From Nymphaea colorata (Eukaryota; Streptophyta; Magnoliopsida; Nymphaeales; Nymphaeaceae): a stretch of 64,000 nucleotides of DNA. Below are positions 20,775 through 49,144 of the stretch, piece by piece. The stretch lies in assembly GCF_008831285.2 (NCBI RefSeq), contig NC_045148.1, forward strand, positions 14,362,802 through 14,426,801. The letters run 5' to 3'. Both the position numbers and the translations under genes were made by a program. Positions within the stretch are counted from its first letter, which is position 1, and each line of letters begins with the position of its first letter. The notes beneath the pieces were generated by a model. It did no database searches. It saw only the letters and a list, made by a program, of their open reading frames with translations, and was not told the origin of the DNA.

Positions 20775-20815
<41 letters not shown>
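20775..20815 (+). promoter_or_regulatory. (CT)n pyrimidine tract in nucleoredoxin 5' leader
   Basis: About 20 CT units end 15 bases before the ATG at 20831. A CT tract sits at the same place before the paralogue's ATG (29732-29757), with shared flanking text (CTAAYTTAAC.GGC). Probably 5' UTR. A role in expression is inferred. Confidence 0.6.
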
Positions 20816-20819
<4 letters not shown>

Positions 20820-20830
20820 AGGCGGTCTCG

Positions 20831-26081: not shown

Positions 26082-26109
26082 AGAAAAAACACCCCTTCGT
26101 TTTGAACCA

Positions 26110-26115
26110 AATAAA
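26110..26115 (+). terminator. Poly(A) signal AATAAA of the NRX1 gene
   Basis: AATAAA 29 bases after the stop, in the sequence AACCAAATAAAA that is conserved after the paralogue's stop (34839-34844). Confidence 0.55.
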
Positions 26116-27208
26116 ACTCCCATCGTGATGCTTTTACTGTATCCGCTTGCTCTGGCTTAGCTGCTTAGTTGCATATTTATTTGGCATCCACAGCACACGT
26201 ATACTCCACTTGCTCAATTGTTTTGTGGTAGAAATCATATGAGAAACTTCAAAAGAAAATGGTTGTATTCCCCGTCTTCCGTCGTATGCATGTGAGAATT
26301 GGCATTCTCTTACTAGGTAGGCACAATTTATTTCCATGGCATATATATTCTACCTTACTGTAACTGTTCGTTTTTCTAAAATTGGAACTCGTGTTTGTTG
26401 TAAATTACTAGTTCTTGTAAATATTATTTTACTGAAGATCATTGCGCATCTCCCTCAAAATTGCCAATATTTATGACTATAGACAACCCTCTGGATTAGC
26501 TTTTTGGAGCAGTATAACGGTGTAATTTATTGTATATAACAAAGACGAAATCAAGATGCATGTCAGTTTTCGACATACAACTTAAAGAAAGGCAGGCTTA
26601 AGCAGTATCAATATTATATGATTCTTTTTACCTGTGAAATTCATGTTACATGTTCAAGAAACATGATTTTTGTTGTCTTAGAAAATGCAGATTACAATTT
26701 CATTGGTGTTTTGTTCATTAAAAAAATGACGCCAAACACAACATTTGGTTAGAGTAGTCATGCTTGCATATTTAAAATACACACGCACACTCATACACTT
26801 ATATATACAAAGATCGCTAAATTTTAGACTTGGTCAATCTGAGACTATTTAGACTGATTATTTACCAATCAATCAATTTGATTAATGTTTTAAAGTATTG
26901 TACGTACAATTGCTTTCTAACATCAAACAATAATTTACCATTTATCCAACTATAATTTACCATTTAACCTTCCTGGGGAAGATACATCAAAAAACCCCTC
27001 CTCTCGAGGCCAAAGGCTGGTTGGTGGCATGGGTGGACTTACAGTTATTCACTTCAACTCACAACTCAAGGGTAGCATTTTCTACCATTTGCAGCTCGGA
27101 TAAGTAGTTTCTATGAAAATCAAACTAATAATTGAACTTTCATTCAACCCAACCAACTACATTATGCTCAATAAAAGAGCCACATGATGATTGGTAACGT
27201 TAAACATT

Positions 27209-27253
<45 letters not shown>

Positions 27254-27994
27254 TACCCCACGAGATATAACTATTTTTAAATGAGTGCTCCTCTAACCAA
27301 TTGTTCTGGCTCCACCATTGGCTATGCCCCTTGAGGCACCATTTTTTACCTTCTTAAAAAAATACTTTTACTTGTAGATTGTGCCAATACTTAATTTAGA
27401 TGTTTTGGATGCCACAAAAAAAAATATAAAAATCAATCCATGCTTTTTTGGCCACAAAATGGTTTTCTTAGCTTACAAGATTAGAAAAAAAATGCATACT
27501 TAGTCAACCGGTTTATCGTCTGGATTTTGCAGTCGGTCTTCCAAAGATTGGAACACAAAAATGTGGTTGCTTAATCTCTAAGTTCGAAAAAGGCCAAGAA
27601 AAATTAATGTGTAGATCAGCGGTGGGATCCGGGATGTTAGATTGAGGTTGTACCGATCCAAAATATCTTAGATCCTTCATATACACTCTACAGTAAAATG
27701 ATTGAAGTGCACTGACATCAAAATATATGGACGTTGAATAGAAGATATTTATCTAAAATGAAATCTAAATTCGAGTCTTGAAACTATTAGATATTTATTT
27801 AAGATGCATCCGAATTGTATGACAGGATGCCACTTTTTAAACCCAAATCTGATCTGATTTCTTGATTATTTATTTTCATATTTGACGTTTTAAAACCAAT
27901 GGCGTCAGATATCTAACCCAGATTCGACCCATTAACATCCTTAGAAATCACCGGCCAACTTTTGCATAGTAAAACACATCTCCATCATTCCCAC

Positions 27995-28114
<120 letters not shown>

Positions 28115-28469
28115 TGTTACTAAAGAAATTTTTTGCACATACTAATTAACATGATTAATGAATGCTGATCTAATATAACTTTGCTTCAATTCAAGTTAGT
28201 TTTATGAAAGATATAAAATTTTTTATTATGAAAAACTGATGTAGGCTTTAACTGTGTGATGATTAAATAAACACATCCAAATATCACTGTTAGTTAATAT
28301 CTATAAAGCTAGTTTGCATAAAAAATTATTTCAGCATTGACCTAATTTAAGAAGTCCTTTTTTTTTAACATTAACGAAACTTCACAGTCTTTTTCTGCAT
28401 TTCTCTCGGGTTCTCTCTTGAGTATTTAATATGGAGAAATTTCATTGAACGTTCCCTGTCGACTATCTA

Positions 28470-28511
28470 GTAATAAGAAAGACCCAAGTTGTATACTTAT
28501 ATATGTTTTTG

Positions 28512-28549
<38 letters not shown>

Positions 28550-28650
28550 GGGTGCATGTTAAAGAGTATTTATTAATAAGAAAGACACAAGTGATATATT
28601 TATATACGTGTTTGCAAAAAAGCGAGAGGGAGAGATGAGTGTTCATGTTT
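28470..28650 (+). repeat. Imperfect tandem duplication (about 90 bp) containing a GA array
   Basis: Unit 1 has TAATAAGAAAGACCCAAGT, ATATATGTTTTTGCAAGAGA and GAGATGGGGGTGCATGTT. Unit 2 (from 28573) has TAATAAGAAAGACACAAGT, TATACGTGTTTGCAAAAAAG and GAGATGAGTGTTCATGTT. In unit 1 the GA run is expanded to about 17 repeats; in unit 2 it is GAGAGGGAGAGATGAG. Confidence 0.75.
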
Positions 28651-29731
28651 AAGAATCCATCTAATCACTTCGCTGATTGGCCAGATAATTTTATTTTATT
28701 GATTTGATATATATATATATATATTGCTTATTAAAAAGTAAAATGCCAAAAGAACAAGGTTATATATACGTATCTACTACCACCAACCGCTTAATTGAAT
28801 GGTCAAAGATTTTGTATTTAAAAAATCAATATGTTGTGCAAGAAGGACCTACCGAGAACATGTTTTGATGGATGTTTTAATTCATTTTTTTTCTAAAAAC
28901 ATAACTGCACGCATGGTGATTGAATTTATGAGTTCATGAATCAACATTTAAATTGCTCGGTACGATTTATATTGGCTTTCGTAAAGTTTGAAAAGTCATC
29001 TTTTATGTAGTGGCTATTTCCTTGATAAAAGATATTATGAATACACTCCAGTTACAATGTAGCGGGACCATGGCCTTAAAGATTCTTCGATCTTGTCAAG
29101 TTATTTCTCAAGAATATATGTACTTTCTCACCGACGAAAGAAGATAGTGCACCGTGACCATAAAATATTTGTTTTGCTTATTTTATCGTGGAAAGTGTAC
29201 CTTACACCTATCTTTCTCTGTGTCTTTTGACGCGGCTAGGCATGAGGTTTCCATGAAGTTTCTATACCTAAAAGTCCCATGCTTAGTTGCTATAGGACAT
29301 CTAAACTTGAGCAATTGGTGTCGATTCAAAATGGACGTATTCTTTTTTATATCCACATATATTCAAATTCAAATTTCATGTGAACGCATATAAACAAAAG
29401 TCAGTCTATAATATATTATATTCGAGCTCTGAATTCTAGGTTCCAAGTCCCAATCTGATTTGATACGAGTAACGAAGAGTAGGTCTCCATGAGCCCGGTT
29501 TCTTTTCAGGCCGGTGCCCGTAGATATCTGACTCGATTGCCATCTTAAAAGAGCATTAAAATATAAACGGTTCCGTCATCATCTTATAAATTTATAGAAA
29601 AGTTGGGATTTTGGCTTGCTTTGGGTTTATTGGCGCGAATATTTAAGCAGCCTCAGTGCAGTGGGTGGAAAACGGCAGTGCGAAAGATTGCCTGCGTCTA
29701 ACTTAACAGGCAGCGGCAGTACAGTACCCAA

Positions 29732-29757
29732 TCTCTCTCTCTCTCTCTCTCTCTCTT
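29732..29757 (+). promoter_or_regulatory. (CT)n pyrimidine tract in second nucleoredoxin 5' leader
   Basis: 13 CT units ending 21 bases before the ATG at 29779; positional match to the tract before the first NRX gene. Confidence 0.55.
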
Positions 29758-29778
29758 TGCGCCTCTCAAGTGTTCTCG

Positions 29779-32700
29779 ATGGCGGAGAAGGCCGACGGAG
29801 CCAGAACATACCGTCTGGTGGAGCTCCTCTCCTCTGCTGAGAGGGACTACCTTGTCAGGCGAAACGGCGATCAGGTGCGCGATTCATTCTCATTATTTTT
29901 CCTTTCTTATCTGCATCTCCTCTTTCCAACGAATTGAAGTGTCCAATAATTGAGAATTCCAGAAAAGTGTTCTTGTTTCTCGTGTTTTCGTGCTCTGTGT
30001 TTTCTCCGTCTTATCGCATAACTGCTTGAAAGCGAAGAGAGAGCCGGATTCCGGTGAGCTTCCCGTAATCCCGTTGCATTGTTCGGAAGCGGCGCGCACC
30101 TAGGCAATGACTTGGAGTGCCCCCGAATAACGCGTGCCGAACGTAGATTCAGAGAGCTTAATCTTCAAGCTCAATCTGCCGTGATCATGGAGAATAAATA
30201 AGAAAAAGGGAAAGATAAAGAACGAGATGCCTTTTTTTGACGAAGTTTGGAGGATACTGCCGTAAGAAAGAGGTGGCCACGCAGCCCACGGCCATGGTGG
30301 CTCTCGTCAACTCCAACTGAACTACTACAGCCCCTCGGCTCAGTCTTAAAGATATCGATTTGTCGAATGGACCGATTCATCGATTTTAGCTGAGTCGGTT
30401 CACAACCGACATAAAAATTTTAACAAATAGCTGAATTAACGAAACGATTGAAATATTAACAAAAGTCTGAAATTATCCACTCGTGTCTCGAATCGGCCAC
30501 CGAATCGAATCATTTTCATGGATTCCAGTAAAATTGGCACAGACTGATTCGGTTTTCAATTTAACGTGCTTTACTCATAGCTTCCAGTGTTTTTGTTGGG
30601 CTTCCTTTTTTTTTCTTCGCAGATTTTTAAAGGATTAGTTGGCCCCTTCATTTCTACCTTCTAACAATTGACCAAGTCTATCCTCAACATTTGCTCTTGT
30701 AAGACCATGAATTCTTTGTCTATAGATAGTGATCTACCTGCCAAAATGAACTTACGTAATTAATTTGAAAAGGCAATCTTAAACTCCTCCCTTTTATCTT
30801 TTTTTGAGAAGCCTATTCCAATTTCTAGTTATCTGCATGAGAATGGATACAAATACACCGATTTTCCTGATTCTTAAGGGAATCGATCAACTTTTAGAAC
30901 CCAAATCAGGCCACAATTGAATAGGAAGAAGGCCAATTTGATGATTCGTGCCCAACTTTACAACTTACCCAACTTGATGTCAATGCGTGTCCCATTGGTC
31001 AATCTCAGTGAGTACTGAGGATGTAGTATGTCGACGAAATGACTTTAGAAAGGATACAGTTTTGAAAAATACGTAATTTTACTTGCAACTTCTTTGAACA
31101 AAAAGGAGGAAATACACCAAATGGAGGCTGCGATACAGGCTGACGTGTATCGGCCGTTTCGCTTAGCCAGCAAACAGACATGGTGCTGACACCGATACGG
31201 AGGTCACTGACAAAACTATTCTGGCTGGCTTGTGGTTCCCTCGTTGTAGAGTTGCTCGAGCTCCGCCGCCATTCCATCAAAGCAAGTTACTAGTTCTGTT
31301 CGTAGCTAGGTTCACAAAACGTATGACCATTTTCAAAAAGGTGACAGATTATCAGTGATACTCCATTGTTGCAAAGGAGAAAGGCAAATGAACCATGCTG
31401 ATATCTTGTCCCTTTGGTCGTCTACTGTTATTCCAGCGCTGTGATGTAGGTAAGTGAGTATCAGAAGAACTATACGTAAGAAATAAAAATAATCTTATTT
31501 GAAGCTACGGTACAGGAGACTTCTTCTTCATCTTTACGTCCCCCATCCCTAGCGTAGCGAACTTCATGAAATCGGTCGTCTCCCCTCATCCTCAGTGGGA
31601 GACTGGAAGTTAGACACGCACATGCTATGCTGAATCCTTCATTCCATCTGCTGATTTAAACTACACTTCCTTTTCCCTTCAGAAAACCCACTCAACCAGT
31701 AATGGTTATCATTCATTCATGGATTCTGAATATCATCATGTGTCGTAGATGTCTGACAGCCGTTTGCAAATGGGTTTCCTAAGTACAGGTAAAAGTCAAT
31801 GATCTCGAAGGGAAGACTGTTGGCCTCTATTTCTCCGCATCTTGGTGTGGCCCATGCCGACGATTCACTCCGGAGCTCATCAGCGCATATGAAGGGCTTG
31901 TTCCAAAAGGCGATTTTGAGGTTGTATTTATATCGGCTGATGAAGACCAGGAGCAATTCGACAAGTACTTTTCAAAAATGCCTTGGTTGGCCATTCCATT
32001 CTCTGATTCAGACACCAGATCATCTCTCGATGAGATATTTGAGGTCTCAGGGATCCCAAATTTGGTCATTCTTGATGGTAATGGTAACCTGTTGACAGAT
32101 GATGGCACCATGATGATTAGAGAGTATGGTGTTGAGAGCTATCCATTTTCTACGGAAAGGATACAAGAGTTGAAGGCAGAGGAAGAAAATGCTCGAAATA
32201 ATCAGAGTCTGAAGTCAATTTTGGTACATTCGGCAAGAGATTTTCTTATATACAATGATGGCAGGAAGGTATTCATACTCGCTCCTTGTATACTGCAATG
32301 TCCTTTCATTGTACAAGACATTGATGCATCCTCATCTTATGGATTTTAGTCGACTGGTATACTGGTCACTTGTTAAATAGATTAATTTTCTTGTGCACTA
32401 GAATGAAATTGATTTTACCACCTACTGAATTAATGCACCAATTCCTGATTGATTGTTGAACCATAATCTTGAACCTTGTTCTTTCCTGCTGCCGTGTTTG
32501 TCATGTCAGGCGAGTTTAGTTGATTAAGAAAGAATGAACCTAAGAGATCATACAAGGCTAATCTGAGCTAGCTTTTTTGCCTTGGCAGTAGGAACTTATG
32601 GGATCTGACATGGTTGCACACTCATTCCACATTCTCCAAAGAAAAACAGGAAAACGAGGAAGAAGCTCGCAGCACACTTGGGATATTAATTGTGTGCATG

Positions 32701-34802
32701 ATTAGTTTCCATAGAACATAAAATGTATATATAATATGTATACTGTAGCATAGTAACTTATGGAATCATTTAGTACCAGGCTGAAATAAAAAAAAAAAAA
32801 AAAAGAGAGCTGCTGCAACCTTTTCATGCTTACTGTAGACAGCAAGAGAAAACTTAATGGTGATAAAGTAGATAATGGGTGTTGGACGTCCTTGTGTATG
32901 TTCATAATATTTGTTTCGATCACTATTGCTTTTTATTCTTTCCCTTTTTTTAGCTTTTTACTTTGAAATAGCCAATCAGGGCATTTAGCATTGCAGACTA
33001 GTGAGTGGAAAAGATGGTAGACTGTCTCAAGAATTATACGAAAATAAGATTATTACCACGAGACAGTTGCTATCGCATATGCCATTAGGAAAAGCATGCG
33101 GCTTCTTCTGTGATGCCGTAGAAGAAATCTCTGACACTAGGATATGAACCGCCCATGAACAGAGTTCTCTGCCCCTGATTAAATCTCCTTAATGCAGAAC
33201 TTCAGTTTGTCCTGCCTCTGCTGAGAAATAGACATGGATTTTATACAATAAAAGTTCCCATCAAAGATTCCCAGGTTGAAACGTCAGCAAAGATGTAACG
33301 TAACGTCAACCTGATGTCAAGATATGTTATTTCATTTTAGTTATCCATGAAAAAAGAATTAGTTGACGTAAATCAGATTAATTAAATTCACTTGCTAGGC
33401 TTGACCCTTTGGCACTTCTTGAAACACAAACCTAATGCAATGGTGGCGTTCAACAGTCGGCTGATTACACCTTCTGATTAGTGATTTTTTTGTTTTATTT
33501 GCTTTTCTTGACAACCATGGCTTTTTATGTAATTACATGTGTTTTAGGTCCTTACTCCAAGTCATTGTCAGACCAGCTAAAATCTCCTCCTTTTTACATC
33601 ACCATGTAATGCGTCCTATTATCAGGTCCCTGTGACAGAGCTTGAAGGAAAGACCGTCGGTTTGCTATTTTCGGCATATTCTTTCGAACCATGCAAGGAA
33701 TTCATCCCACAACTAGTGGAAGTCTACAACAAGTTGAAGGAAAAATACTTTGAGATTGTCATGATCTCACTGGATTTCAACACCGAGAGCTTTGATGAGG
33801 GATTTCAAGCAGTGCCATGGCTTGCTCTGCCTTTTAATGACTTGACATGCACGAAGTTACCTCGCTACTTTGAGATTGAGGGGATTCCTACACTAGTTAT
33901 AATTGGACCCGACGGGAAGACGCTGCAGTCAGATGTCGTCGAAGCCATTGAAAATCATGGTGCTGAGGCTTATCCGTTCACTTCAGAAAGGATGGCAGCA
34001 CTTATGGAAATAGAGAAAGCTAAACTTGCATCACAGACAATAGAATCGCTGCTAGTCTCAGATGAAAGGGACTTTGTCATTGGAAAGGGTGAGCTCAAGG
34101 TAGTGATTATCAGATTCCTTCCTGTAATTCTCATGATAGAGAACGAATCAAGTTATTTGAGATGGATTTTCAGTTTAAGAAACAACTCATTTTCCGTTTC
34201 TTTTCTTTCTTCTGCCAGAAAGTTTGTCATTTTCTTTGCTGCTTTCTACCGGCAAAACAACGAATTTTCTCTTTTCTTCGCAGGTGCCAGTCTCTGATCT
34301 AGTTGGTAAGACTGTCCTCCTCTACTTCTCAGCACACTGGTGTCCTCCATGTCGTGGATTCACCCCCAAGCTTATTGAAACATACCACGAGATCAAAGCT
34401 AAGGATTCAGCTTTTGAAATAATCTTCGTCTCAAGTGATCACGACCAAGCAGCATTTGAAGAGTACTTTGCCACAATGCCATTTTTAGCTCTCCCTTACG
34501 GCGACATGAGAAAGAAGTCTTTATCAAAAACCTTCAAAGTCACCGGCATCCCGACTCTTGTTGCCATCGGCCCGAATGGCAGGACACTAACGAAAGATGC
34601 TAGGAATCTAGTGGCCAATTATGGCGCTGCAGCATATCCTTTCACAGAGGAGCGGCTGAAGGAGCTGGAACAGGAGACGGAAGAAACAGAAACAGCAGAA
34701 AGTGATGCTGAAGATGATCAGAATGGAGTCGGCCAAGAAATACAAGGTGAACCATGCAATGAAGGCTTGGTTTGTGATGGTGAAGTTTGCCGTAGAGCCT
34801 GA
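29779..34802 (+). CDS. Nucleoredoxin 1-like protein lacking the DC1 zinc finger
   Basis: Exons 29779-29874, 31789-32268, 33626-34099 and 34284-34802 are GT-AG and phase 0, giving 522 aa. Exons 2 and 3 have exactly the lengths (480 and 474 bases) of those in the upstream paralogue. Domain 1 has WCGPC, domain 2 has SFEPC in place of a CXXC, domain 3 has WCPPC and GIPTLVAI. The difference is the C-terminus. After the third fold the paralogue has about 75 residues with a DC1 finger. This gene has a short acidic linker ([20 protein letters not shown]) and then the same terminal tail [10 protein letters not shown]. About 60 codons were therefore lost in frame and the ends kept. The gene looks intact and probably encodes an active reductase with altered targeting or partners (inferred). 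Confidence 0.92.
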
Positions 34803-34838
34803 ACTCTGAAGGAAAGCCTCCCTCTTGTTGTTGAACCA

Positions 34839-34844
34839 AATAAA
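34839..34844 (+). terminator. Poly(A) signal AATAAA of the second NRX gene
   Basis: AATAAA 37 bases after the stop, in the same AACCAAATAAAA context as in the paralogue. Confidence 0.55.
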
Positions 34845-35157
34845 ACCCCTATCATATGCTCGTAGGACATATCGTTTTGTGATGCTTTTTACGGTTACTG
34901 TATCTGTTTGTTGTTTAATAAACTCTGCTTATGTATGCTTTCCCTCCCTCTCGATCGTGGAATGAATGTGGATAGGGTTGCCTATGTTTAAAAAGATCTT
35001 AACTACTATAGTTTTGATACACTTATCGAGCACTCAATGTAGAACTAGATGGAAGAAGAAATTAGTATTGTTCTAATAAAAAGTTGTGAGGATATGTAAT
35101 GTGATCTAAATGATTTTTTTTTAGTGACAGTATGTTTCCAAATTACCGGAAGGCGAT

Positions 35158-35162
35158 GTATT
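35158..35162. repeat. Target site duplication GTATT (left of composite)
   Basis: GTATT precedes TGTTAGGATCC and is repeated at 49145-49149 after GGCTCGTATCA, the other LTR end. Confidence 0.85.
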
Positions 35163-38100
35163 TGTTAGGATCCCGACATCAACGGGCCAACCGAAGGAGT
35201 TGAGGTCCTGAAGCCAAGATCACCTCGAGGAATCCAGACCCAAAAACCTAAACAAATTATACAAGGAACTACCCGGCCGGACAGGACCGCGGCGCAAACC
35301 CGATAGGACGTGCATACACAGAAGGGTAATCCCAAAAACCTAACTAAAGCAAATCCTATTATAGAAAACTATTAGGGATGCGAGGCCGTACAAGCGTGTG
35401 TGATACAGAAATGCTCTCGCAACTCACTCAATGCTAACCATTCAAACCACACAAACCATATCTACACGTAACAAACCACACCCAATACCCTAGGTAGGCT
35501 CGTCGATTAGCGGTCGTGTCTAGGCCAAGGGCCGTCGAGGTACCGCTGGAATCAACCAAGGCCGAAGCCGGGCTTCAAACAATCACACAAGCAAAATGCA
35601 CCCGACCCGCGATACTACAAGGGAGTGAGAGGGCGTTACCGGCCAAGCGAGACTTGGCTATCAGCAAGGTGGCCACGAGGTGAATTCCTGACCTCGGGCA
35701 ATGCAGCGGCAAGGATGGAAGGTCTCCGGTTGAGGAAGGCAGCGGATTGGATCCACGCGGCAAGTTGGAATCAACACGAGAAGTCTTCAAGTGGCCGGCT
35801 AGGGACGCCGGGCTAGCTGCTGGAATAAGCCCCTCCTGGCCGTGAGTAAGAGGCAGCAACAACCCACGAGCTACTGCTGGAAGAGGCCCTCCTGGCCGTG
35901 AAGGGGGTGCGGCAGCAAGAGGGGTGCCAGAGGTGGAAGGGTCCCGCTGTGCGTGGGGAGGTCCTTCGGGAGGGTAGGGTTCGGTCTAGAACCCGGGAGA
36001 TCCTAACTACGGAAAGGAGAAGAGCTCAGACAGACCTAGCTACGCGGACGGCTGTGGATGGCTGGCTAGGTCGAGGCTTAGGCGAGCTAAGTCAAGGCTT
36101 AGGGTCAGCTGGGACAAGGTTGACTAAAACACGGTTTAGGATCAGATGCGGCTAGGTTGACTTGAAACAAGTCAAGACACTAAGGAAGAAGGATAAGTGC
36201 GGAAGGTAGGTGCGGCTTGGGTCTAGCCGTGCGAGGTGCGTCCGAGTCACTTTGGCAACGTAGACTTTAGCTGCCTTAGGACCGTGGGCTACTTTCCACA
36301 ATGAGAGGAAAGGAGGCTAGAGGGATTAGGTTGCCAAAATGGGAGAGGTCGACCTAGAGAGGTTGACTAAGGAATGATGCGTTAAGGGCTTACCTAGAAG
36401 AGGGAAAGGGAGGATACGACTAGGGGTTTCCTAGGGGAGGGAGTTGACTCGAGCTGGTCAAAGGCTGCTGGGTTAACTAAGATGGACGAGGCTAGGTGGC
36501 GGCGATCTAACTAAGGTAGAGGGAGATGAGGAGGACGCCACATACCAAGAGGCAAGGGGTGGCGTGGCCTAAGATTGAGGAGGGAAAGGGGCGCCTAATT
36601 CCAAATGGAGATTAGAGCTAAGAGGGTCGCTAGAGAGAGACTAGCGAATCAGGAATTGATTCCAATTCTTTCCTAAGGTATAAGGATTGAATTGGCGTTA
36701 AGTTCCTTTCCTAACTCGTAGGAAAGGGGAGGGCACGTGGCTTGAATCCAAAATGGAAAGTCTTCAACGTTTACGCGCGTGATATCCTTTTCTCTTCTTC
36801 ACAACGGACACAAGGGGGTGAAACGGTAAGAAATGGGAAAGGCAAGGTCTAAGGAGTAAAGCTGGTCAACACTAAGGAAAGAAGCATGAGGTGGCAAAGG
36901 GGAGACTCCATGCGAGAGGATCTTGGGACGGTGGGACAAAGGGAAGGGGATATGGTGAGACAAGGGAATTTTCAAATCGGTGCCAAGTGTAAACCGTGTG
37001 GGACCTACCTGGAAATGGCTGGCGAGATGGACGTGGAGGGTTCACTCGGTTTGGGATGGATAATCATTAGGAAGCACGAGGTGGAAAGGTGCTTAGGTGG
37101 GGACGAGCTGGGCTGGCTGGCGTAAAGGTAGGGAAGGGATTTGGGCAAGTAGGAGGTGGCGAGTTCTTAGGCTTCACTCCCAAAAGAGAAACCGCGTGAA
37201 GTCTCTATGAAATCGGCCAAGGCTTAGACAATAGGAAAGGGAAAAACGTGTTAAGGTGAGCTACCCAAAATGGGTGGAGACGAAATAGGGAAAGGAGGAA
37301 GTGGCGCTACCACAAGGCTCCACCAAAATGGGAAGACCGTGAAATCACTAAGAGATCGGTGGAGGACTTAGGCGATGGGGAAGGAGAAACCGTGTGGAGC
37401 CAGATGACTCGAAGAGGGGGAGGCTGGCTGGTGAGGTGGCAGGAGGTGTAGCCTGGGATTACGACACGTGGCGACACCAAGGGTGAGGATGAGAGACGAT
37501 CTAAGGATGACTAGAAGAAAGGAAACAAAAACGGAATGAGTTGACGAGGAGAGGGATCTTGCTAAATTGGTGGAATTCGTTGGAGTCTTGGATGATTCTC
37601 GGCTGGGACCGAATCAACAAAGTGGGACAGGTGGCTGATTCAATCAAAGAGGGTGCAGGAATGGCTGACACGTTTTAAGATCAAAGGCTGGAATTAAACT
37701 AGAGAAAGAAAAGATTGATTTACCAAATGAGGAACCGGCGGCCAAGGGAGATGCGTGTAAGCACCGGCGGCTAGGGTGAATTTCCCTAGTGCGCTCCTCC
37801 AAACAAAAACCAGAATACCCTCAGCTTGTAGTTAGACTTTTCCACGAACAGAGGCAGACTGGACCACGCCGGATTTTGCCAAAAGTTGGCCGGAATCAAC
37901 TGAATCTCACCGGACTTGCAGAATTTCAGGCCGAGCCTAAACATGTGAATGATCAACCGGATGAATCTCAATCTTTTCCGTTTGATTCCTTATGATGGGG
38001 CGACTTCTTCTAAGTATTTTTCTTGTTGTTTAGACACCCTTTTGATGCACTTTTGCAAGCCTTTTGCTTGCTGGAGTTGTGCGTCAGCCTTGATCAAAAC

Positions 38101-38717
38101 GAAGACAGCCAAAGAGCTTTTTTGAGGACGCTCGTTGGAAACCTTCGTGCGTAGCGTGAGGGAAAAAACTCGAGAATTCCAAGGAGTTCTTGAGACGCAT
38201 AAGCAGGGATTTAACGCTGTTTTCAGTCATGTGATGAGAGCCGAAACTCTCAGGGGTGCACCGAGGGAATGAAGTCTTCCTTTTAGCTGAACTCGCTATT
38301 AAATCCAAACAACGAGTTGCTCACCAACTCTTCTCGTATTCTCAATGTACTAACCTTATTCTCTTGCTACTTTTGATGTCGTATGCTGCTGTAACCTGGT
38401 CGCCCAAGCTGCTGCAGCCTTCCTGAGAAGAAGACAGCCTCACAACCTTCTTGTGTTTGAGAAGGAAGGCACCGATCTTCTTCAACGTGCTCGTGGGGTA
38501 TTCTTCGTGGTCCGTTTGGTCGAGGGGAAAGGGGAGATACCAAAAAACAAGGACGAGGAGAGGGAGACCTTCGACTGAGAAGAGGGTGAAAGTGATGCTG
38601 TCCTTCACCTAGGAAGTTGGAATGTAGATGACGCCAAGAGGAGTTACGCTAGGAAGAGGAGATACCTTGGTCCTCGGTTAAGCCCTTACAAACCGGCTGG
38701 ATTTTTGGCTCGTATTA
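35163..38717 (-). repeat. LTR copy A (3' LTR of the original element)
   Basis: Plus strand starts TGTTAGGATCC and ends GGCTCGTATTA (terminal TCA mutated). On the minus strand a purine-rich tract (AAGGAGGGTGGATC) precedes it, marking the 3' LTR. It lacks the segment equal to solo-LTR positions of about 3525-3938 plus 9835-10063. Confidence 0.85.
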
Positions 38718-39906
38718 GATCCACCCTCCTTAAAATGAGCTTGTCCCCAAGCTCTTGATTTACTTCTTCCAGGATGGGTCTGAGTTCCACGTGCTACCCA
38801 CATAAGTTTTTCCTTTGGTCCATAGTCTCGGGGTAGCACTGCAAGTGAGTTCCTCTGGTTGAGGAAGCATCCTCTCGGCCCTTTCTTACAATCCCGAGTG
38901 AAGACCCGAGTTGTCTTACTCGTGGTTTCTGGATGTAACTTTCTGGGGCCGTAGTCTCTAGGCAGCTGCCCAATGTGAAGCTTTTGCTGTCCTTGCAGCT
39001 GTTTGCTTCCGCTTAAGCTCGCCTTCTGTGTGATGGCCTTCCCGTGGCTCTGAGATTGCCACATTTTACTACTTACGGGTACAGGCCACTGCGCTTCTGT
39101 TGCGCGCTCACTATAGTCGGGGCCTAGTGATAAGCCTGACATATTTGGATTAAGGGAGTCATGATGATCCCTTAATTCCCAACTACAGTTTCGAGAGTCT
39201 GGAAACTGGTATGCTCTCCATCGCTTTGGGTAGAGTTTTTCAATGTAATTCCCAGAGTTGGCAAGTTGTGTTGCTGACCACCTTTCCTAGACTATATCTG
39301 ACGCTGGGGAGAGGTGAAGGTGGTCACGGTGTACTGATTACCGGTTGCTCCTATTTCTGTCGCTGTAATGCCATGACATTCATCAATAAGGTTTTCATTT
39401 TTCTCTTCGGACTCGGGGAGGATTCCGTCTCTCTTTGCTAGAAGCTCTTCTTCAAACTGCTCCCGGATGTTAAGCGGTTTGGTTCTTTGCTTACACCCGG
39501 GTTTATTAGAGCCCTTTTTGTTTCTGTTAGAGGCGGCAACTACCTCTTTTCCTGCTTTGCGCGTAACAAGAGGAAGTCTTTTGTCTTGGGCTCTATCTAC
39601 TTTGGCGTTTTGTCTTGCCATTTCTTGAGTCTCCCTTTGTTGGAGTTTTATTTGTGCCTTTTTGTTGGGAGACTCTAAGAAGTCGTGATCCATACCACCC
39701 TCCTTAGGTTGGTTCTTACTCGCAAAGAGGTTAGGAGGTGGTAATAACCTGTCGCTGTCCGTGTCTGGCTGCCCCGTTGGTTTCATTTCTGTTTGCTCCA
39801 GGGGTTCACGGTTCCATGGCTCATCTGCCCATTGGAAGAGTGAAGCTGGGGTGAAGATTTCTTCTTCGCTATGCTTCGGCCTTGACATAGGACGTGCCTC
39901 AGGCAT
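38718..39906 (-). pseudogene. C-terminal part of the element-encoded protein (basic, unrecognised), left arm
   Basis: Minus-strand frames from 39906 read MPEARPMSRPKHSEEEIFTP, ASKNQPKEGGMDHDFLESPN, a Lys/Arg-rich stretch (NRNKKGSNKPGCKQRTKPLN) and REQFEEELLAKRD. After a stop near 39292, and in shifted frames, similar text continues to LPRDYGP..KLH and VDLIRAKNPAG, ending beside the LTR. A second, inverted copy at 41375-42473 shows the same protein with fewer breaks, which supports real coding rather than chance. I recognise no domain. The mix of acidic and basic segments could suit a nucleic-acid-binding role, but that is speculation. Confidence 0.55.
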
Positions 39907-40142
39907 TAGTCCTCCAAGAGGTGTCGCCCCACTTTCAGCTCATGTTAGGCTGGATGAGCACTCTTCATTCGAGTTTGGACAACAAATATTACTTTCCCTT
40001 AAACTTTTTTGCTCTGTGGTCTTGGTAGGTTTTGGTAAGGGAAGTAATCCTTTATAGATGCCAGTGGAGTGCTTTGTGTCTCCCCGTCTTATCGACTCGC
40101 TCGGTTGGTCGGGCCCTTGGTCTTTATTTGTTGCTCTAGGTT

Positions 40143-41116
40143 TCATCCCAAAGGCTGTCTAGCACTGATTGCCTTGGCTGGGCCAAGTATGCCTTTAGTA
40201 TCTTTCGATGTGATACTCGTGCTGTCATTAGGAAGGGCGCTAGGAGGGGCTCCAAGTATCCCTTTTTTTGAAATTTCAATTTTCGCACAATTTAAAGGCT
40301 TGAGGGCGTTTACATTGGTACATCCTCGACTTGGCAACTCTATTTCTTCATCGCTTGAAGAACCAGTGCTACTGTCATCGTCGGATTCAGATGAAGTTTC
40401 TTCTTCGTTCTCTGGTTTGAACTCTTTTGGCAACATGTTCATAGGCGTCTTAGAAGGAGAAGAGGATTTTTCATCCTCACTAGACGAGTATGATTATGTT
40501 TCAGTATCGGATTCAGTAGCAAGCTCAGCCCGTCTATTATCACTTGGTGTTCTCTTATTTCTGATCGACTGTCTGTGGTCCATCCTGTCGAGCATCATGT
40601 TAACCTTGTTGAGAACTTCATCCCACATGGAGGTCTTGTGTTTTGGTCAATCGGTCCATAATGCTCTTCTTCATCACTGGGCTCATAATAAGATTCTCTT
40701 TGTTTCTCGGCCGTAGGGAAGAGTCTTTCTTCTTATAGCACTAAGCGAAGACTCGAGAAGCCAACTTTGATAACATCTCCATGATAGATTGGCGCCCATT
40801 CTTGATGTTTTACTTCGTGTCCTGCCACAAGAAGTCTACCCGTGCAAGTGGTTTTGGTGATCCACAATTCTTGGGTATCCTTATTTATGGCTAACTCAAA
40901 ATGACGCTCATGTATACTAGGGTGTCGGAACCTTAAATCGCATTCGGGATTACTACCTACTTGGATATAAGTCCACTTTGGGCCTTGGCCCCAAGTATGT
41001 CCATGGATCAACGTATCCTTCCGAATACAAACACCATTTTCGTAGGTGCTTAGGAATATGTCCATATTCGGTCTACGAGACGAGCACCTCATTCCGTCTT
41101 CTAAACTACCAAGCAA
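40143..41116 (-). pseudogene. FHA-domain ORF of the LTR element, N-terminal and acidic part
   Basis: Read on the minus strand; the first true ATG is MRCSSRRPNM near 41092. An FHA-like phosphothreonine-binding fold follows: IQVGSNPECDLRFRHPSIHE, RHFELAINKDTQELWITKTT, then GHEVKHQEWAPIYHGDVIKV. The family pattern G.....CD.....S...H....., ending in an L-hGDhI-hG strand, is kept; the usual phosphopeptide Ser of SXXH is His here (IHERH). After a TAA at 40735 the same frame continues in acidic text (SYYEPSDEEEHYGPID). It then shifts frame to MWDEVLNKVNMMLDRM and, after another stop, SYSSSEDEKSSS and a Ser/Asp/Glu-rich stretch. The ORF reaches 40143 and leads toward the C-terminal part. FHA is not a normal LTR-retrotransposon domain. 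Confidence 0.65.
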
Positions 41117-41290
41117 AATACCAAATTAAATTCTATGCTACTGCTGAAACCAAACACACTGCTAAACTACCACTCTTAAAGAAAATCCTATACTGTGAAT
41201 ATCCCACTGTAATCTTCTTTTCTGCCCTTGTCTATCAGCCACCTTCTGCCCTGTGTGCGCTAAGGGAAGAGGAAACTAGTTCCGCCTGTC

Positions 41291-41374
41291 ACCGTGCCCA
41301 TCTGAAGGGTGAAGCTAGGGTGAAGAGTTCTTCGTTGCTTTGCTTTGGCGACCACAGCAGCATACGACATCCTT
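41291..41374. other. Pivot of the inverted repeat, made of filler pieces
   Basis: Positions 41295-41346 are a direct diverged copy of about 39824-39884 (GAAGCTGGGGTGAAGATTTC there, GAAGCTAGGGTGAAGAGTTC here). Next comes an LTR-derived snippet, CAGCAGCATACGACATC (41354-41370; in the LTR at 10395). Then the inverted arm begins. Confidence 0.65.
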
Positions 41375-42473
41375 GCCCATCTGTAATCTCGAAACCCGTG
41401 AGCTAACAGAAATAAAACCAACGGGGCAACCAGCCACATCCAGCAACAGATTATTACCACCTCCTAGCATCCTTGCGAGTAAGAACCAACCTAAGGAGAG
41501 TGGTATGGATCACGACTTCTTAGAGTCTCCCAACAAGAAGGCACAGATAAAACTCCACAAAGGGCGACTCAAGAAATGGCAAGACGAAACGCCAAAGTAG
41601 ATAGGGCCCAAGACAAGAGACTTCCTCTTGTTACGCGCCAAGCAGGAAAAGAGGTAGTTGCCGCCTCTAACAGAAACAAAAAGGGCTCTAATAAACCCGG
41701 GTGTAAGCAAAGAACCAAACCGCTTAACATCCGGGAGCAGTTTGAAGAAGAGCTCCTAGCCAAGAGAGATGGAATCCTTCTCGAGTCCGAAGAGGAAAAC
41801 GAAAACCTTATTGAGAAATGTCATGACCTTGAGGTGACAGAAATAGGAGCAGCCGGTGATCAGTACACCGTGACGACCTTCACCTCTTCCCAGCGTCAGA
41901 TACAGTATAGGAAAGGTGGTCGGCAACACAACTTACCAACTCTGGGAAATTACATTGAAAAACTCTACCGAGAGCGTTGGAGAGCATACCAGTTTCTAGA
42001 CTCTCCAAACTGTAGTCGGGAGTTAAGGGATCATCATGACCCCCTTAACCAGAAAATGCAAGGCTTAATACTAGGCCTCAACTACAGTGAGCGCGCAGCA
42101 GAAGCGTAGTGGCCTGTCCCAGTGAGCAACAACACTTGGCGATCTCAGAGTCACGGGAAGGCCAACACACAGAAAGCGAACATAAGCGGAAGCAAACAGC
42201 TGCAAAGGCAGCAAAAGCTTCACATTGGGCAGCTGCCTAGAGACTACGGGCCCGGAAAGTTACATCAAGAAACCACGAGTAAGACAACTCGGGTCTTCAC
42301 TCGGGATTTTAAGAAAGGGCCGAGAGGAAGCTTCCTCAACCAGAGGAACTCACTTGCAGTACTACCCCGAGATTATGGACCAAAGGAAAAACGTATATGG
42401 GTAGCACATGAAACTCTGACCCATCCGGGAAAAGGTATAGTTGGGGACAAGCTCATTTTAGGGAGGGTGGATC
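41375..42473 (+). pseudogene. Second, inverted copy of the element's C-terminal coding region (right arm)
   Basis: Plus-strand ORFs at 41340-42109 and 42122-42505 mirror the minus-strand frames at 38718-39815: ESPNKKAQIKLHK, NRNKKGSNKPGCKQRTKPLN, REQFEEELLAKRDGI, then QYRKGGRQHNLPTLGNYIEK, LYRERWRAYQFLDSPN and QLPRDYGPGKLH. This copy stays open over about 170 codons, so it gives the better view of the ancestral protein. It ends in GGGAGGGTGGATC, a polypurine-like tract, directly before LTR copy B. Confidence 0.6.
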
Positions 42474-45400
42474 TGATACGAGCCAAAAATCCAGCCGGTT
42501 CATAAGGACTGAACCTAGGGCCAAGAAGGGTCCAACAAGGCTCGTAAGGGCTGGACGTGAGTTCAGCAAGGCAGCTAGGCCAGCCAAAGAGGATAATTCA
42601 CAGCTTGGAGTTCTTGCAGTGGGCAGAGCGGGCGGAGCAACAACGGCCAAGCGCGAGCAAAACAGGTTTAAACCTCAAGGTGGCCGAAGGTCCCTCCTCT
42701 CCTCGTCCTTGTTTTCTGGTTTCTCCCCTTTCCCCTCGACCTAAGGAACACGGCCTAAGGATAGCAGCAAGCTCCGGCGCGCAACATCTCCAAACGGACC
42801 ACGAAGAATACCCCACGAGCATTTTGAAGAAGATCGGTGCCTTCCTTCTCAAACACTAGAAGGTTGTGAGGCTGTCTTCTTCCCAAGAAGGCTGCAGCAG
42901 CTTGGGCGACCAGGTTACAGCAGCATACGACATCAAAAGTAGCAAGAGAATAAGGTTAGTACATTGAGAATACGAGAAGAATTGGTGAGCAACTCGTTGT
43001 TTGGATTTAATAGTGAGTTCGGCTAGAAGGAGGACTTTACTCCCTCGGTGCACACCCGAGAGTTTGAGCTCTCATCCCATGGCTGAAAACAACATTAAAT
43101 CCCTTCTTACGCGTCTCAAGAACTCCTTGGAATTCTCGGCTTCTTTCCCTCAAAGCTACGCACGAAGTTTCCCATCGAGATTCTCCTTCAAAGAGCTCCT
43201 TGGCTGTCTTTGGTTGAACAAGGCTGACACACAAATCCAGCAAGCAAAGAAGCTTGCAACGTGCATCAAAAGGGCATAAAACAAAATTCAAGATACTTAG
43301 AAAGATTCGCCCAAGCAAGAGGAATCAAACGGCGTAATTTGGTCTTCATCCAGATACTTTAGCGTAAGATAGGCATCAGCCTGAAATTCTCCAATTCCGG
43401 TGAACATTCAATTGATTCCGACCAGACTTTGGCCATTTCTGGCGTGGTCCAGATTGCCCTCCTTTCTGAAAAAGGGCAGATTACAGATCAGGGGTATTCT
43501 GGACATAGTTTGGAGGAGCGCACTAGGGAGTTCAACCCTGGCCGCCGGTGCTAGCTCGCACCATCCTTGGCCGCCGGTCCCACTTTGGTAAGTCCTTTTC
43601 TTTCTCTCTTTTGCTTAATCCCAGCCCTTGCCTTAGCCATATGTCAGCCATCCCACAGCCTCCCTGATTGACCCAGCCATCTGTCCCAATTGGTTGATTC
43701 GGTCCCAGGCGAGAATCATCCAAGACCCCATCGTATTCCACAAATTTAGCGAGATCATCTCTTGTCGCTAACCCCTTACCGATTTTGTTGCCTTACCCTT
43801 AGTCAACCGAGATCTTCCTTGCATCCTAGCCCTTGATAATCCCCACGTGTCCTCATCCTGTTGTCTCTCTCCTACCACCTCACTAGTTAGCCCCTCCCTC
43901 TTCGAGTCATCTGTCCCCACACGGTTTCACCTTTCCCCTCATCTAAGCCCTCTACTGATATCTTAGAGATCCTTAGGAGATTCACGCGTCTTCCCTTCTA
44001 GGTGGAGCCTTGAGGTAGCGCCACCTCCTCCTTTCCCTACTTCACCTCCTTCCTTTTTGGTAGCTCACTCCCACACGTTTTCTCCTACCCCATCGCATAA
44101 GCTCCTTGTCGATTTCTTAGAGACTTCACGCAGTTTCCCTTTTGGAAGTGAAGCCTAAGAACTCGCCACCTCCTACTTGCCCAAATCCCTTCCCTACCTT
44201 TACGCCAGCCAGCCCAGCTCGTCCCCACCTAAGCATCTTTCCACCTCGTGCTTCCTAATCATTACCCCCCTAAACCGAGCAAGCCTCCATCTCCATCTCG
44301 CCAAGCCATTTCTTGGTAGGTCCCACATGGTCCACTTGGCATCGATTGAGAAATTCCCTTGTCTCGCATTTCCTTTTCCTCACCGTCCCTAGCTCCTCTC
44401 GAATGAAGCCTTCCCCTCGCTACCTCATGCTTTCCTTCTTTGGTTAACCTCTTGACCCATTAGCCCTTGCCTTTCCAACCCCTTACCGAGTTCACCCTTG
44501 TGAAGAAGAGAAGAAGACCCGCGCCCAACTTTGAATACTTACCATCCTTGGCATAAGCCACGTGCCTCCCTTTCCTTCGAGCTAGGAAAGGTGCTCAAGA
44601 CAATTCGATCCTTATTCTTAGGAAAGAATTGGAGTCCATTCCTAATTCGCTAGTCTCTCTCTAGCGACTCTCTTGGCTCTTATTTCCTTTTTGGAATTAG
44701 GCGCCCCTTTCCCTCCTCTATCTTAGGAAGGAAATCCCACATCAACCCTTACCTCTTGGTAATTGACGTCCTCCTCATCTCCCTCTATCTTAGTTAGGTA
44801 GCCGCCACCTGGCCTCAACACCCTTAGGAACCCTTGACCAGCTTGAGTCAACTCTCACTTAGGAAAGACCTTAGCCGAGTCCACCCTTGCTCCCCCTTAG
44901 GAAAGTCCTTACCGCGTCAACACTTACTTCGTTTTGAGTAAGCCTTCACGCGCCAACCCAGTCAACTCCCTAAGTCGGCCTCACCCATTTTGGCAACCTA
45001 ATCCCCCTAGCCTCCTTTCCTCCCATTCTGGAAAGTAGCCACGGTCCCTAGGCAACAAGCCTCCAGTTGCCAAGTGATTCGGACCCACCTTGCATGGCTA
45101 GACCTAAGCCGCCACCTTCCTTCCGCACGCACCTACCTCATTACCTTAGAGTCTTGACTTGATCTAAGTCAACCCAGCCGCATCTGAACCCAAACCGTGT
45201 AGTAGTCAACCTCGTCCCAGCTGACCCTAAGCCCCGACTTAGCTCACCTAATCCTCGACCTAGCCAGCCATCCTTAGCTGGACCTCCTTGGTAGCTAGGT
45301 CTACCCGAGCTCTAGACCGAGCTCTTTTCTATTCCCGTAGCTAGGATCTCCCAGGTTCTAAACCGAACCCAACCAGTTCGAAGGTCCTCCCCACGCACAG

Positions 45401-46059
45401 CGGGACTCTTCCAGCAGTGGCACGTCAGTTGCTGCTGCCTCCCTCACGGCCAGGAGGGCCTTTTCCAAGCAGCTAGCCCGGCGTCCCTAGCCGGCCACTT
45501 GAAGATTTCCGGCATTGATACCACCTTGCAGCGCAGGTTCCATCCGCGGTCTTCATCAATTAGAGTCTTTCCCTCCTTGTTGCTGCATTGCCCGAGGTCA
45601 GGAATTCACCTCGCGGCACCTTGCTGACAGCCAAGTCTAGCTTGGCTGGTAACGCCCTCTCACTCCCTTGTAGTATCGCGGGTCGGGTGCATTTTGCTTG
45701 TGTGATTATTTGAAGCTCGGCTTCGGCCTTGGTTGATTCCAGCGGTACCTCGACGGCCCTTGGCCTAAACACGACCGCTAATCGACGAGCCTACCTAGGG
45801 TATTGGGTGTGGTTTGTTACGTGTAGATATGGTTTGTGTGGTTTGAATGGTTAGCATTGAGTGAGTTGCGAGAGCATTTCTGTATCGCACACGCTTGTAC
45901 AGCCTTACATCCCTAGTAGTTTTCTGTAGTAGGATTTGCTTTAGTTAGGTTTTTGGGATTACCCTTCCGTGTATTCACGTCCTATTGGGTTTGCGCTGGG
46001 GTCCTGTCCGGCCGGGTAGTTCCTTGTATAATTTGTTTAGGTTTTTGGTCTGGATTCCC
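42474..46059 (+). repeat. LTR copy B (inverted, 3' end missing)
   Basis: Starts TGATACGAGCC after the purine tract. It lacks the segment matching solo-LTR 3690-3938 plus 9835-10160 and stops at TTTTTGGTCTGGATTCC, about 85 bases before the expected CCTAACA end. There it jumps back into earlier LTR sequence at an ATTCCC microhomology. Confidence 0.8.
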
Positions 46060-46269
46060 GTAGCTAGGATCTCCCGGGTTCTAAACCAAACCCCAGCCCG
46101 TCTCCTCCCCACGCACAGCGGGACTCTTCCAGCAGTGGCACGTCAGTTGCTGCTGTCTCTCTCACGGCCAGGAGGGCCTTTTCCAAGCAGCTAGCCCGAC
46201 GTCCCTAGCCGGACACTTGAAGATTTTCGGGATTGATACCACCTTGCAGTGCAGGTTCCATCCGCGGTC
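46060..46269 (+). repeat. Duplicated LTR fragment at the B/C junction
   Basis: Repeats about 45335-45550 (CGTAGCTAGGATCTCCC to CCATCCGCGGTCT) with small changes, then joins reverse-oriented LTR at GGACGCCAC. Confidence 0.75.
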
Positions 46270-49144
46270 TGGACGCCACTTACCAAAAGGCAAGGGGTGG
46301 TGTGGAGACTTCCTTCCTAAGATTGAGGAGGGAAAGGGGCGCCTAATCCCAAATGGAGATTAGAGCTAAGAGGGTCGCTAGAGAGAGACTAGCGAATCAT
46401 GAATTGATTCCAAATCTTTCCTAAGGTATAAAGATTGAATTGGCGTTAAGTTCCTTTCCTAACTCGTAGGAAAGGGGAGGGCACGTGGCTTGAATCCAAA
46501 ATGGAAAGTCTTCAACGTTTACGCGCGTGATATCCTTTTCTCTTCTTCACAACGGACACAAGGGGGTGAAACGGTAAGAAATGGGAAAGGCAAGGTGTAA
46601 GGAGTAAAGCTGGTCAACACTAAGGGAAGAAGCATGAGGTGGAAAAGGGGAGACTCCATGCGAGAGGATCTTGGGACGGTGGGACAAAGGGAAGGGGATA
46701 TGGTGAGACAAGGGAATTTCTAAATCGGTGCCAAATGTAAACCATGTGGGACCTACCTGGAAATGGCTGGCGAGATAGACATGGAGGGTTCACTCGGTTT
46801 AGGATGGATAATCATTAGGAAGCACGAGGTGGAAAGGTGCTTAGGTGGGGACGAGCTGGGCTGGCTGGCGTAAAAGTAGGGAAGGGATTTGGTCAAGTAG
46901 GAGGTGGCGAGTTCTTAGGCTTCACTCCCAAAAGAGAAACCGCGTGAAGTCTCTATGAAATCGGCCAAGGCTTAGACAATAGGAAAGGGAAAAACGTGTT
47001 AAGGTGAGCTACCCAAAATGGGTGGAGACGAAATAGGGAAAGGAGGATGTGGCGCTACCACAAGGCTCCACCAAAATGGGAAGACGCGTGAAATCACTAA
47101 GAGATCGGTGGAGGACTTAGGCGATGGGGAAGGAGAAACCGTGTGGGGCCAGATGACTCGAAGAGGGGGAGGCTGGCTGGTGAGGTGGCAGGAGGTGTAG
47201 CCTGGGATTACGACACGTGGCGACACCAAGGGTGAGGATGAGAGACGATCTAAGGTTGACTAGAAGAAATGAAACAAAAACGGAATGGGTTGACGAGGAG
47301 AGGGATCTTGCTAAATTGGTGGAATTCGATGGAGTCTTGGATGATTCTCGGCTGGGACCGAATCAACAAAGTGGGACAGGTGGCTGATTCAATCAGGGAG
47401 GGTGCAGGTATGGCTGATACGTAGCAAGATCAAAGGCTAGAATTAAACTAGAGAAAGAAAAGATTGATTTACCAAATGAGGAACCGGCGGCCAAGGGAGA
47501 TGCGTGCAAGCACCGGCGGCTAGGGTGAATTTCCCTAGTGCGCTCCTCCAAACAAAGACCAGAATACCCTCAGCTTGTAGTTAGATTTTTCCACAAACAG
47601 GGGCAGACTGGACCACGCCGGATTTTGCCAAAAGTTGACCGGAATCAACTGAATCTCACCGGACTTGCAGAATTTCAGGCCGAGCCTAAACATGTGAATG
47701 ATCAATCGGATGAAGCTCAATTTTGCCGTTTGATTCCTTATGATGGGGTGACTTCATTTTTCTTGCTGTTTAGACGCCCTTTTGATGCACTTTTGCAAGT
47801 CTTTTGCTTGCTGGAGTTGTGCGTCAGCCTTGATCAAAACGAAGGCACCCAAAGAGCTCTTTTGAGGACGCTCGTTGGAGACCTTCGTGCGTAGCGTGAG
47901 GGAAAGAACTCGAGAATTCCAAGGAGTTCTTGAGACGCGTAAGCAGGGATTTAATGCTGATTTAATGTTGTTTTCAGCCGTGGGATGAGAGCTCAAACTC
48001 TCGGGGGTGCACCGAGGGAATGAAGTCTTCCTTTTCGCCGAACTCACTATTAAATCCAAACAACGAGTTGCTCACCAACTCTTCTCGTATTCTCAATGTA
48101 CTAACCTTATTCTCTTGCTACTTTTGATGTCGTATCCTGCTGTAACCTGGTCGCCCAAGCTGCTGCAGCCTTCCCGGGAAGAAGACAGCCTCACAACCTT
48201 CTTGTGTTTGAGAAGGAAGGCACCGATCTTCTTCAACGTGCTCGTGGGGTATTCTTCGTGGTCCGTTTGGAGACGCTGCGCGCCGGAGCTTGCTGTTGTT
48301 CTTAGGCCGTGTTCCTTAGGTCGAGGGGAAAGGGGAGAAACCAGAAAACAAGGACGAGGAGAGGGAGACCTTCGGCTGAGAAGAGGGTGAAAGTGATGCC
48401 GTCCTTCACCCATGGAGTTGGAATGTAGATGACGCCAAGAGGAGTGATGCTAGGAAGAGGAGATACCTTGAGGACGAGTGGAGGAAGAAGAGTTCGCACC
48501 ATGGATGAGGAGGGACGCCAAGGAGAGAAGGGAGACCACCGCAGGAGAGGGGTGAGCTAAGGGGAAAACGAGAGAGAGAAAAAGGGGCATTCCGCCCAAC
48601 ACACCAATTCAATTCATTATTTCCAAAAGCATCCTAATTACATGGATTCAATTACTTAAATACTATCCTAATCAACTCGGTTCACAATCCGAACTGGTTC
48701 ACTAAAGAATTAAATAAAAAATGGAACACAAAATAAACTAAAAACGAGATGCTACCCTTCTCAATCCTAAGTAGATATCCGTGGATCTTTTGGATCCATT
48801 CGCTTGGGCGCTTGGTTGAACTTGGATCGGCTCAACCCCCATTTGCCTAGGTTCGGCCTGGGCTACCTCGTGTGAACTCGGGTTAGGACTCGACCATAGG
48901 TTAGACCATTCTAGTTGAGGAGAGTCCTAAAAACAGATCAAGGTCACCTTGAGGTTTAAACCTGTTTTGCTCGTGCTTGGCCGTTGTTGCTCCGCCCACT
49001 GCAAGAACTCCAAGCTGTGAATTTTCCTCTGTAGCTGGCCTAACCACCTTGCTAAACTCACGTCCAACCCTTACGAGCCTTGTTGGACCCTGCTTGGTCC
49101 TCGGTTCAACCCTTACAAACCAGCTGGATTTTTGGCTCGTATCA
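46270..49144 (-). repeat. LTR copy C (5' LTR of the original element, inner end missing)
   Basis: Reverse orientation, parallel to 36535-38717 of copy A but with the full outer segment that A lost. Ends GGCTCGTATCA next to GTATT. The inner end, which should adjoin the primer site, is missing. Confidence 0.82.

Follow-up and report, generated by a model that had tools for sequence, protein, structure and literature searches.

An FHA-domain open reading frame in a family of non-autonomous LTR retroelements of Nymphaea colorata

Can an FHA domain belong to the coding content of a long terminal repeat (LTR) retroelement, or does it merely happen to lie within one? The question is raised by a 64,000-bp stretch of the Nymphaea colorata genome (C11:14362802-14426801, referred to here as the window), in which a first-pass annotation had read, from motifs only, a phosphothreonine-binding FHA fold inside a large-LTR element without recognisable gag-pol genes. 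We found that this insertion, here called element A, is a decayed member of an element family. It is probable in our view that the family is non-autonomous and that its sole long open reading frame (ORF) encodes an FHA protein in the gag position.

The FHA frame and its relatives

The FHA-domain frame at 40736-41125 on the minus strand (read from 41125 to 40736, Met at 41065) comprises 130 open codons and is directly followed by a stop. It matches the Pfam profile PF00498 with 37.4 bits (E=3.6e-9, cut-off 20.7) over residues 55-122, so that the assignment made from motifs is confirmed by a profile; the motifs, the strand, the polypurine tract (PPT) and the LTR agree with the earlier description as well. 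A PDB sequence search with this frame gave nothing lower than E=0.24 (Ki-67 FHA), and an AlphaFold2 model from the single sequence (mean pLDDT 37) was too poor for structural comparison. Among about 5.8 billion proteins, a set whose plant share is not known, neither the FHA frame, with 7 candidates, nor the 880-aa ORF of the relatives described below, with 6,837, yielded a homologue. Within element A the internal order is FHA, acidic part and C-terminal part, separated by a stop and frame shifts; the 5' leader including the primer binding site (PBS) is missing, and the target site duplication (TSD), the LTRs and the PPT are retained. The window copy is a poor guide, and we therefore turned to relatives in the same genome (407.8 Mb in 783 contigs searched).

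Three of these relatives, located on C2, C10 and C4 and assigned to subfamily T2, possess LTR pairs of about 3.07 kb with identities of 98.25%, 99.71% and 99.48%, respectively, and the ORF lies between them. Their LTRs start with TGATACGAGCC and end with CCTACCA, the PBS is TGGTATCAGAGCC, which we take to be of the initiator Met tRNA type, and the PPT is AAGGAGGGTGGATC. Target duplications of 5 bp were identified for the C10 (AGTGT) and C4 (ATGTC) copies; at the flanks of the C2 element a clear 5-bp TSD was not found. If the grass-derived rate of 1.3e-8 substitutions per site per year is applied, the age of the C10 copy comes to about 0.1 million years. The C2 and C10 copies each have an open frame of 880 aa, the C4 copy one of 770 aa, and the range over four copies is 760-880 aa, which bears out the expectation that the ORF is kept among family members, and in the longest relatives the FHA, acidic and C-terminal parts form one ORF. 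All four open frames scanned from subfamilies T1, T2 and T3 match PF00498 (25.6-32.3 bits), and no other Pfam domain exceeded its cut-off in them. The modules common to T1, T2 and T3 are the N-terminal FHA domain and C-terminal LPRDYGP motifs in a basic stretch. With paired LTRs, TSD, PBS and PPT in the C10 and C4 copies and FHA as the only domain of the four frames, the description as an LTR element without gag-pol holds. In the leader of several FHA elements (L033/L034, L027, L030, L050) a hairpin, calculated at -19 kcal/mol (z -5.6) for the C10 copy, contains a PBS-like sequence.

In the genome-wide search 150 of 164 candidates were scored against PF00498, yielding at least 69 matches, and 23 of the 69 listed lie in open frames of ≥400 aa. 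Nine out of ten sequences fetched from these 23 fall into the FHA-element family, and one lies outside it (C7:17249251, L012). The family comprises the diverged subfamilies T1, T2, T3, T3x and T4, all of which carry the FHA domain. A search for the PPT-LTR junction pattern yielded 392 sites versus 3 in the reversed control. At least 15 of the 69 FHA matches have such a junction ≤4 kb downstream on the same strand, a lower bound, since 57 sites drawn from 100 of the 392 entered this comparison. The distance from FHA to junction is 2.0-2.7 kb in 11 of the 15 and 0.55-0.70 kb in the other four, where, as in L054 and L055, little sequence separates the FHA domain from the PPT. In T1-T3 the domain forms the start of the ORF, in the gag position, and is not adjacent to the PPT as the first-pass annotation had it. 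Five sampled junctions included two with a decayed T4-type FHA frame ≤1 kb upstream, two with the C-terminal module and one with gag-pol. A dense cluster of LTR junctions was also noted at C3:28.4-30.9 Mb near the contig end, many of them of the gag-pol type (CAGGAGG).

Selection, residue changes and probable host origin

The ratio of nonsynonymous to synonymous substitution rates (dN/dS) was determined for pairs of copies, which share ancestry and are not independent; stop codons were skipped. In T1, dN/dS of the FHA part ranged from 0.17 to 0.58 in 20 of 21 pairs, the remaining pair showing one synonymous and no nonsynonymous change. The six T4 pairs all lie between 0.27 and 0.52, and the T3 pair has a value of 0.07. 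For this T3 pair the first 140 codons gave 0.12 (P=4e-10) and the remainder of the ORF 0.42, compared to 0.97 and 1.16 when the whole aligned ORF was read in the shifted frames. Whole-ORF values for three T1 pairs were 0.51-0.67 (P 0.011 to 2e-5), with 0.75-1.02 in the shifted frames. Purifying selection on the FHA ORF is accordingly seen in most of the informative pairs, which come from T1, T3 and T4. L050 and a partial T1 match in L039 were left out of the dN/dS values for the FHA part and of the host comparison, tree and residue table below.

The binding of phosphothreonine, which the first-pass annotation had attributed to the domain, is not supported. In the window's subfamily Ser replaces the Arg after the first Gly, His or Lys replaces the conserved Ser, and GRL takes the place of the NGT-like loop. 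Among the aligned sequences the Arg is absent from 13 of 13 in T1, T2, T3 and T3x and present in 4 of 4 in T4; T1-T3 show Ser or Gln at this position. The phosphate-contacting Ser is missing from all 17 aligned T sequences. L050, found by a T4 query and located outside the residue alignment, has Ser at the Arg position. Having lost both the contacting Arg and the Ser, T1-T3 do not support the candidate of a direct phosphothreonine reader.

Concerning the source of the domain, the gene L014, near 21.45 Mb of C1 on the minus strand, is the best match of each of the 8 element queries among the five host FHA sequences compared. The 25 element copies can all be aligned with it, with identities of 39-47% in the broken FHA-bearing repeats of groups P and Q and 29-32% in T4, and in 20 of the 25 the match spans 98-115 residues, past the Pfam domain limits. 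L014 carries a 98-bp GT-AG intron within the FHA domain, which is absent from 25 of 25 element copies aligned to it, making capture from a spliced mRNA likely. According to the available part of PMC3071787, the FHA domain of plant PARALLEL SPINDLE 1-like (PSL) proteins conserves Gly, Arg, Ser and His; one Asn is almost always replaced by His, and a second one usually by Ser. In our residue table, from which three host rows were left out, L014 and Q_L003 show all six PSL-type sites; the other seven P/Q copies depart from the pattern at one site or more, and P_L028 is without the first two. Groups P and Q largely retain the PSL-type His and Ser in place of the two Asn, and the repeats L020, L003, L007, L002 and L028 keep much of the canonical FHA signature. 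It is therefore likely, judged from these alignments, that the FHA domain of the elements was captured from a host gene of the PSL type. This agrees with the earlier suggestion of a captured host gene that became an element-specific protein. A tree of the domain (115 columns, weak; P_L028 and HOST_L024 left out) joins all 17 T sequences (98/98), with L014 branching off close to the base on a short branch; this topology would fit one capture or several. In nine P/Q loci, scanned alongside the host gene L014, no convincing PBS or PPT was found.

A putative helper and the competing readings

At one junction on C3 lies the end of a gag-pol frame that stays open for 1,625 codons, as far as the fetched DNA reaches. 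The Ty3-type element contains gag, aspartic protease, reverse transcriptase (RT), RNase H and integrase, the integrase core lying below its cut-off in the piece searched. Pfam made no chromodomain call at the integrase end, where the tail looks chromodomain-like by eye. An exact search found a single PBS. The LTR of this element ends with CCTACCA, followed by the same three bases and the same PBS as in the C2, C10 and C4 FHA elements; further upstream of this LTR end the fetched DNA consists of N. The 3' segment of the element, which comprises GAGCTTGGGGACAAGCTC, the PPT and the beginning of the LTR, was compared with 12 fetched FHA-element regions; 11 gave matches of 82-93% over 40-53 bp, and E_C13 gave none. 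The LTR end matches six of the 12 (E_C4b, E_C12b, E_C7, E_C6, E_C16 and E_C15) with 68-72% over 166-391 bp, and E_C12a and E_C4c over 91 bp and 62 bp. From the shared LTR end, PBS and 3' segment it follows that the FHA elements keep cis signals usable by gag-pol enzymes, and the C3 element is, on sequence grounds, a likely helper that would mobilise them.

How might such a family have come about? A Ty3 element would have taken up a spliced PSL-type mRNA, gag-pol would then have been lost from the FHA-bearing element, and copying would depend on the RT and integrase of a related gag-pol element. Because the phosphate-contacting residues were lost while the other FHA pattern was kept, the domain may have exchanged phosphate binding for a protein-protein interface, with itself, the helper Gag or a host protein as partner. 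For the basic C-terminal module, a role in binding the RNA or cDNA of the element is conceivable. Other copies could provide the protein in trans, and selection on the ORF therefore suggests a preference for the own RNA or cDNA, so that the protein would act mainly on the RNA (or cDNA) of the element encoding it. The full scheme, in which the FHA domain of a meiosis and RNA-decay gene of the PSL type was rebuilt as a cis-acting protein replacing Gag-Pol in a Ty3 parasite, and in which FHA-Gag fusions (group Q) may survive, is a serious but tentative proposal.

Several observations weigh against a selected, host-derived FHA protein typical of the whole family. The youngest copies, those of T2, show no selection signal in the FHA part (each of the 3 pairs has 1-2 nonsynonymous changes and no synonymous one), and for the whole ORF the two T2 pairs tested gave P values of 0.39 and 0.55, the copies being too similar. 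The weakest T1 pair has 0.67 in frame (P 0.011) versus 0.75 in one shifted frame (P 0.085). In the T4 copies L054 and L055 no LPRDYGP module is present in the 1 kb before the PPT, and the C-terminal module is hence not family-wide. The FHA ORF shows no similarity to Gag (hhalign probability 0.1%), by which a Gag remnant inside the ORF was also rejected. In the T2 copies on C2, C10 and C4 the match to the gag-pol LTR end is limited to 32 bp around the PBS. As to the donor, the comparison covered five FHA-bearing sequences, regarded as host genes and only part of the host's complement, and T1-T3 are only 22-35% identical to L014 (the same range applies when T3x is included).

Other readings have to be judged by the same evidence. 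The FHA ORF could be an old accessory or Gag-N-terminal domain of a Ty3 lineage, the non-autonomous elements being remnants of FHA-Gag elements. In L020 of group Q the FHA domain is followed, at a distance of about 900 bp, by a Gag-type zinc knuckle that tblastn aligned with the gag-pol element at E=1.4e-5, a hint of an FHA-Gag stage. The P copy L028 and the T4 copy L055 have a 96-bp leader segment in common (79% identity). However, the sole gag-pol element examined lacks FHA, the gag-pol query detected no pol in the 3.5 kb downstream of L020, where an RT-like frame appears LINE-like by eye, and the P and Q frames are broken; we rate this history as possible yet doubtful. We think it unlikely that the captured FHA serves as a decoy, which would mimic the PSL host protein, block its partner and shield the long-leadered element RNA. 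The likely origin from a PSL-type gene would suit such a role, several P/Q copies keep Arg, Ser and His wholly or partly, and PSL combines FHA with PINc, the latter proposed to function in nonsense-mediated decay (PMC3071787, in the part available), but the residues that contact phosphate are gone from T1-T3, to which the youngest copies belong.

A transduced passenger without function, as in many LTR-captured genes, would be in line with the broken window copy and the T2 pairs without a selection signal. LTR capture is common, with 672 cases in rice and 1,343 in sorghum, those in rice mostly lacking purifying selection (PMC3726574, as far as the source was available). Against this, T1, T2 and T3 all keep a long ORF that contains both shared modules, and dN/dS lies well below 1 in T1, T3 and T4 pairs versus 0.75-1.16 in the shifted frames (T1, T3); the values for both the FHA part and the whole ORF disfavour a passenger, which we regard as quite improbable. 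The window copy by itself, short and broken, could also pass for a chance FHA-like ORF or a lone decayed host gene beside an LTR. This was rejected by the PF00498 match, the genomic copies at the same position of LTR elements and the selection on them, and we give it practically no credence.

The preferred reading, a non-autonomous family with an FHA protein of its own, can be compared with known systems. Like TR-GAG, LARD and TRIM elements, the FHA elements are non-autonomous and would depend on the enzymes of a partner. TR-GAG elements encode Gag, and LARD and TRIM elements are without a conserved ORF; the FHA family instead encodes an FHA protein without Gag homology and lacks the Gag ORF by which TR-GAG is defined. 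Bs1 of maize likewise holds host-derived coding sequence within an LTR element, as described in a 2026 review of gene capture (PMC13317346), whereas here one host domain forms the N-terminus of the only long ORF in several diverged, recently active subfamilies under purifying selection. Selection on some LTR-captured genes has been reported in the accessible portions of PMC13317346 and PMC3726574. A family-wide extra protein of unknown function is shared with the additional ORFs (aORFs) of Retand, Grande and RIRE2, which, in contrast to the FHA ORF, are antisense and located between pol and the 3' LTR; the FHA ORF is sense, stands alone in the gag position and has a likely host donor (compared with the part of PMC11963269 available). 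The same part of that source describes transduced extra ORFs in one or few copies and the extra ORFs of other families in all or most copies. The FHA family likely unites both, its ORF being widespread in the family and probably host-derived. With PSL proteins, as far as their published description was at hand, the element proteins share the FHA type, including the His and Ser of L014 and most P/Q copies, and differ in the C-terminus and in the missing Arg and Ser of T1-T3. In the open-access literature, judged by title, no paper on an FHA-bearing LTR element came up, subscription papers and repeat databases lying outside this search. Within a single genome one can trace a likely donor gene, the passage of the domain from forms with Arg and Ser to forms without them, and selection inside an element family. 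This raises the testable questions why a parasite with borrowed enzymes should retain a protein of its own and whether proteins of this kind are cis-acting.

Anatomy of element A and its surroundings

Element A occupies 35162-49144 on the minus strand, as delimited by comparing its LTR termini with the LTR of a relative. The sequence AATAC is present at both outer flanks, for which reason it looks like a single, internally rearranged insertion. Its 3' LTR (35162-38717, minus strand; terminal CCTAACA) was identified by BLAST to LTR copies and is adjoined by the PPT at 38718-38733 (minus strand), the same tract as at the LTR junctions of relatives. The C-terminal module covers 38678-39939 (minus strand) in two broken frames and was recognised by the LPRDYGP motifs of T1, T2 and T3 relatives. 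The acidic low-complexity part, which is joined to FHA in relatives, lies at 40143-40493 (minus strand), and the truncated 5' LTR at 46271-49144 (minus strand) was found by sequence comparison.

The first-pass annotation had seen the C-terminal part in two copies of the same frame. The duplicate is real (89.7% over 1.1 kb), but the second copy is inverted and has no FHA part. By sequence comparison this inverted copy B contains the C-terminal module and PPT at 41391-42473 (plus strand), followed by its LTR without the last approximately 67 bases at 42474-46058 (plus strand); the junctions at 46058-46271 are complex. The segment 41391-46271 accordingly presents inverted, partly duplicated LTR and internal sequences inside one insertion with matching flanks, i.e. 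a complex rearranged element. No Pfam family was detected in any of five frames, namely the acidic frame 40493-40146, the C-terminal frames 39939-39292 and 39286-38678 and the inverted-copy frames 41498-42109 and 42113-42505.

A motif search with CTAAGGAGGGTGG (up to 1 mismatch) located an internal copy of the PPT within the ORF of element A at 39695-39707 (minus strand). Such copies also occur inside the gag-pol frame (L051 and L056) and in most FHA elements examined (L031-L055), with two each in the T2 copies and in E_C4c and none in E_C4b or the T3_C12a open frame. Codon shuffling of five frames gave an expectation of 0.0015-0.007 each, and the internal copy is a candidate central polypurine tract.

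Outside element A, another LTR of the FHA-element family, apparently solo, is present on the plus strand at 3467-3949 and 9832-13644, with an insertion of about 5.9 kb between its halves. A remnant of a different Ty3-type pol, approximately 35% identical to the C3 gag-pol element, lies at 174-3511 (minus strand), and 19453-34860 contains thioredoxin-like genes in tandem duplication (WCGPCR / WCPPCR), nucleoredoxin-like by eye.
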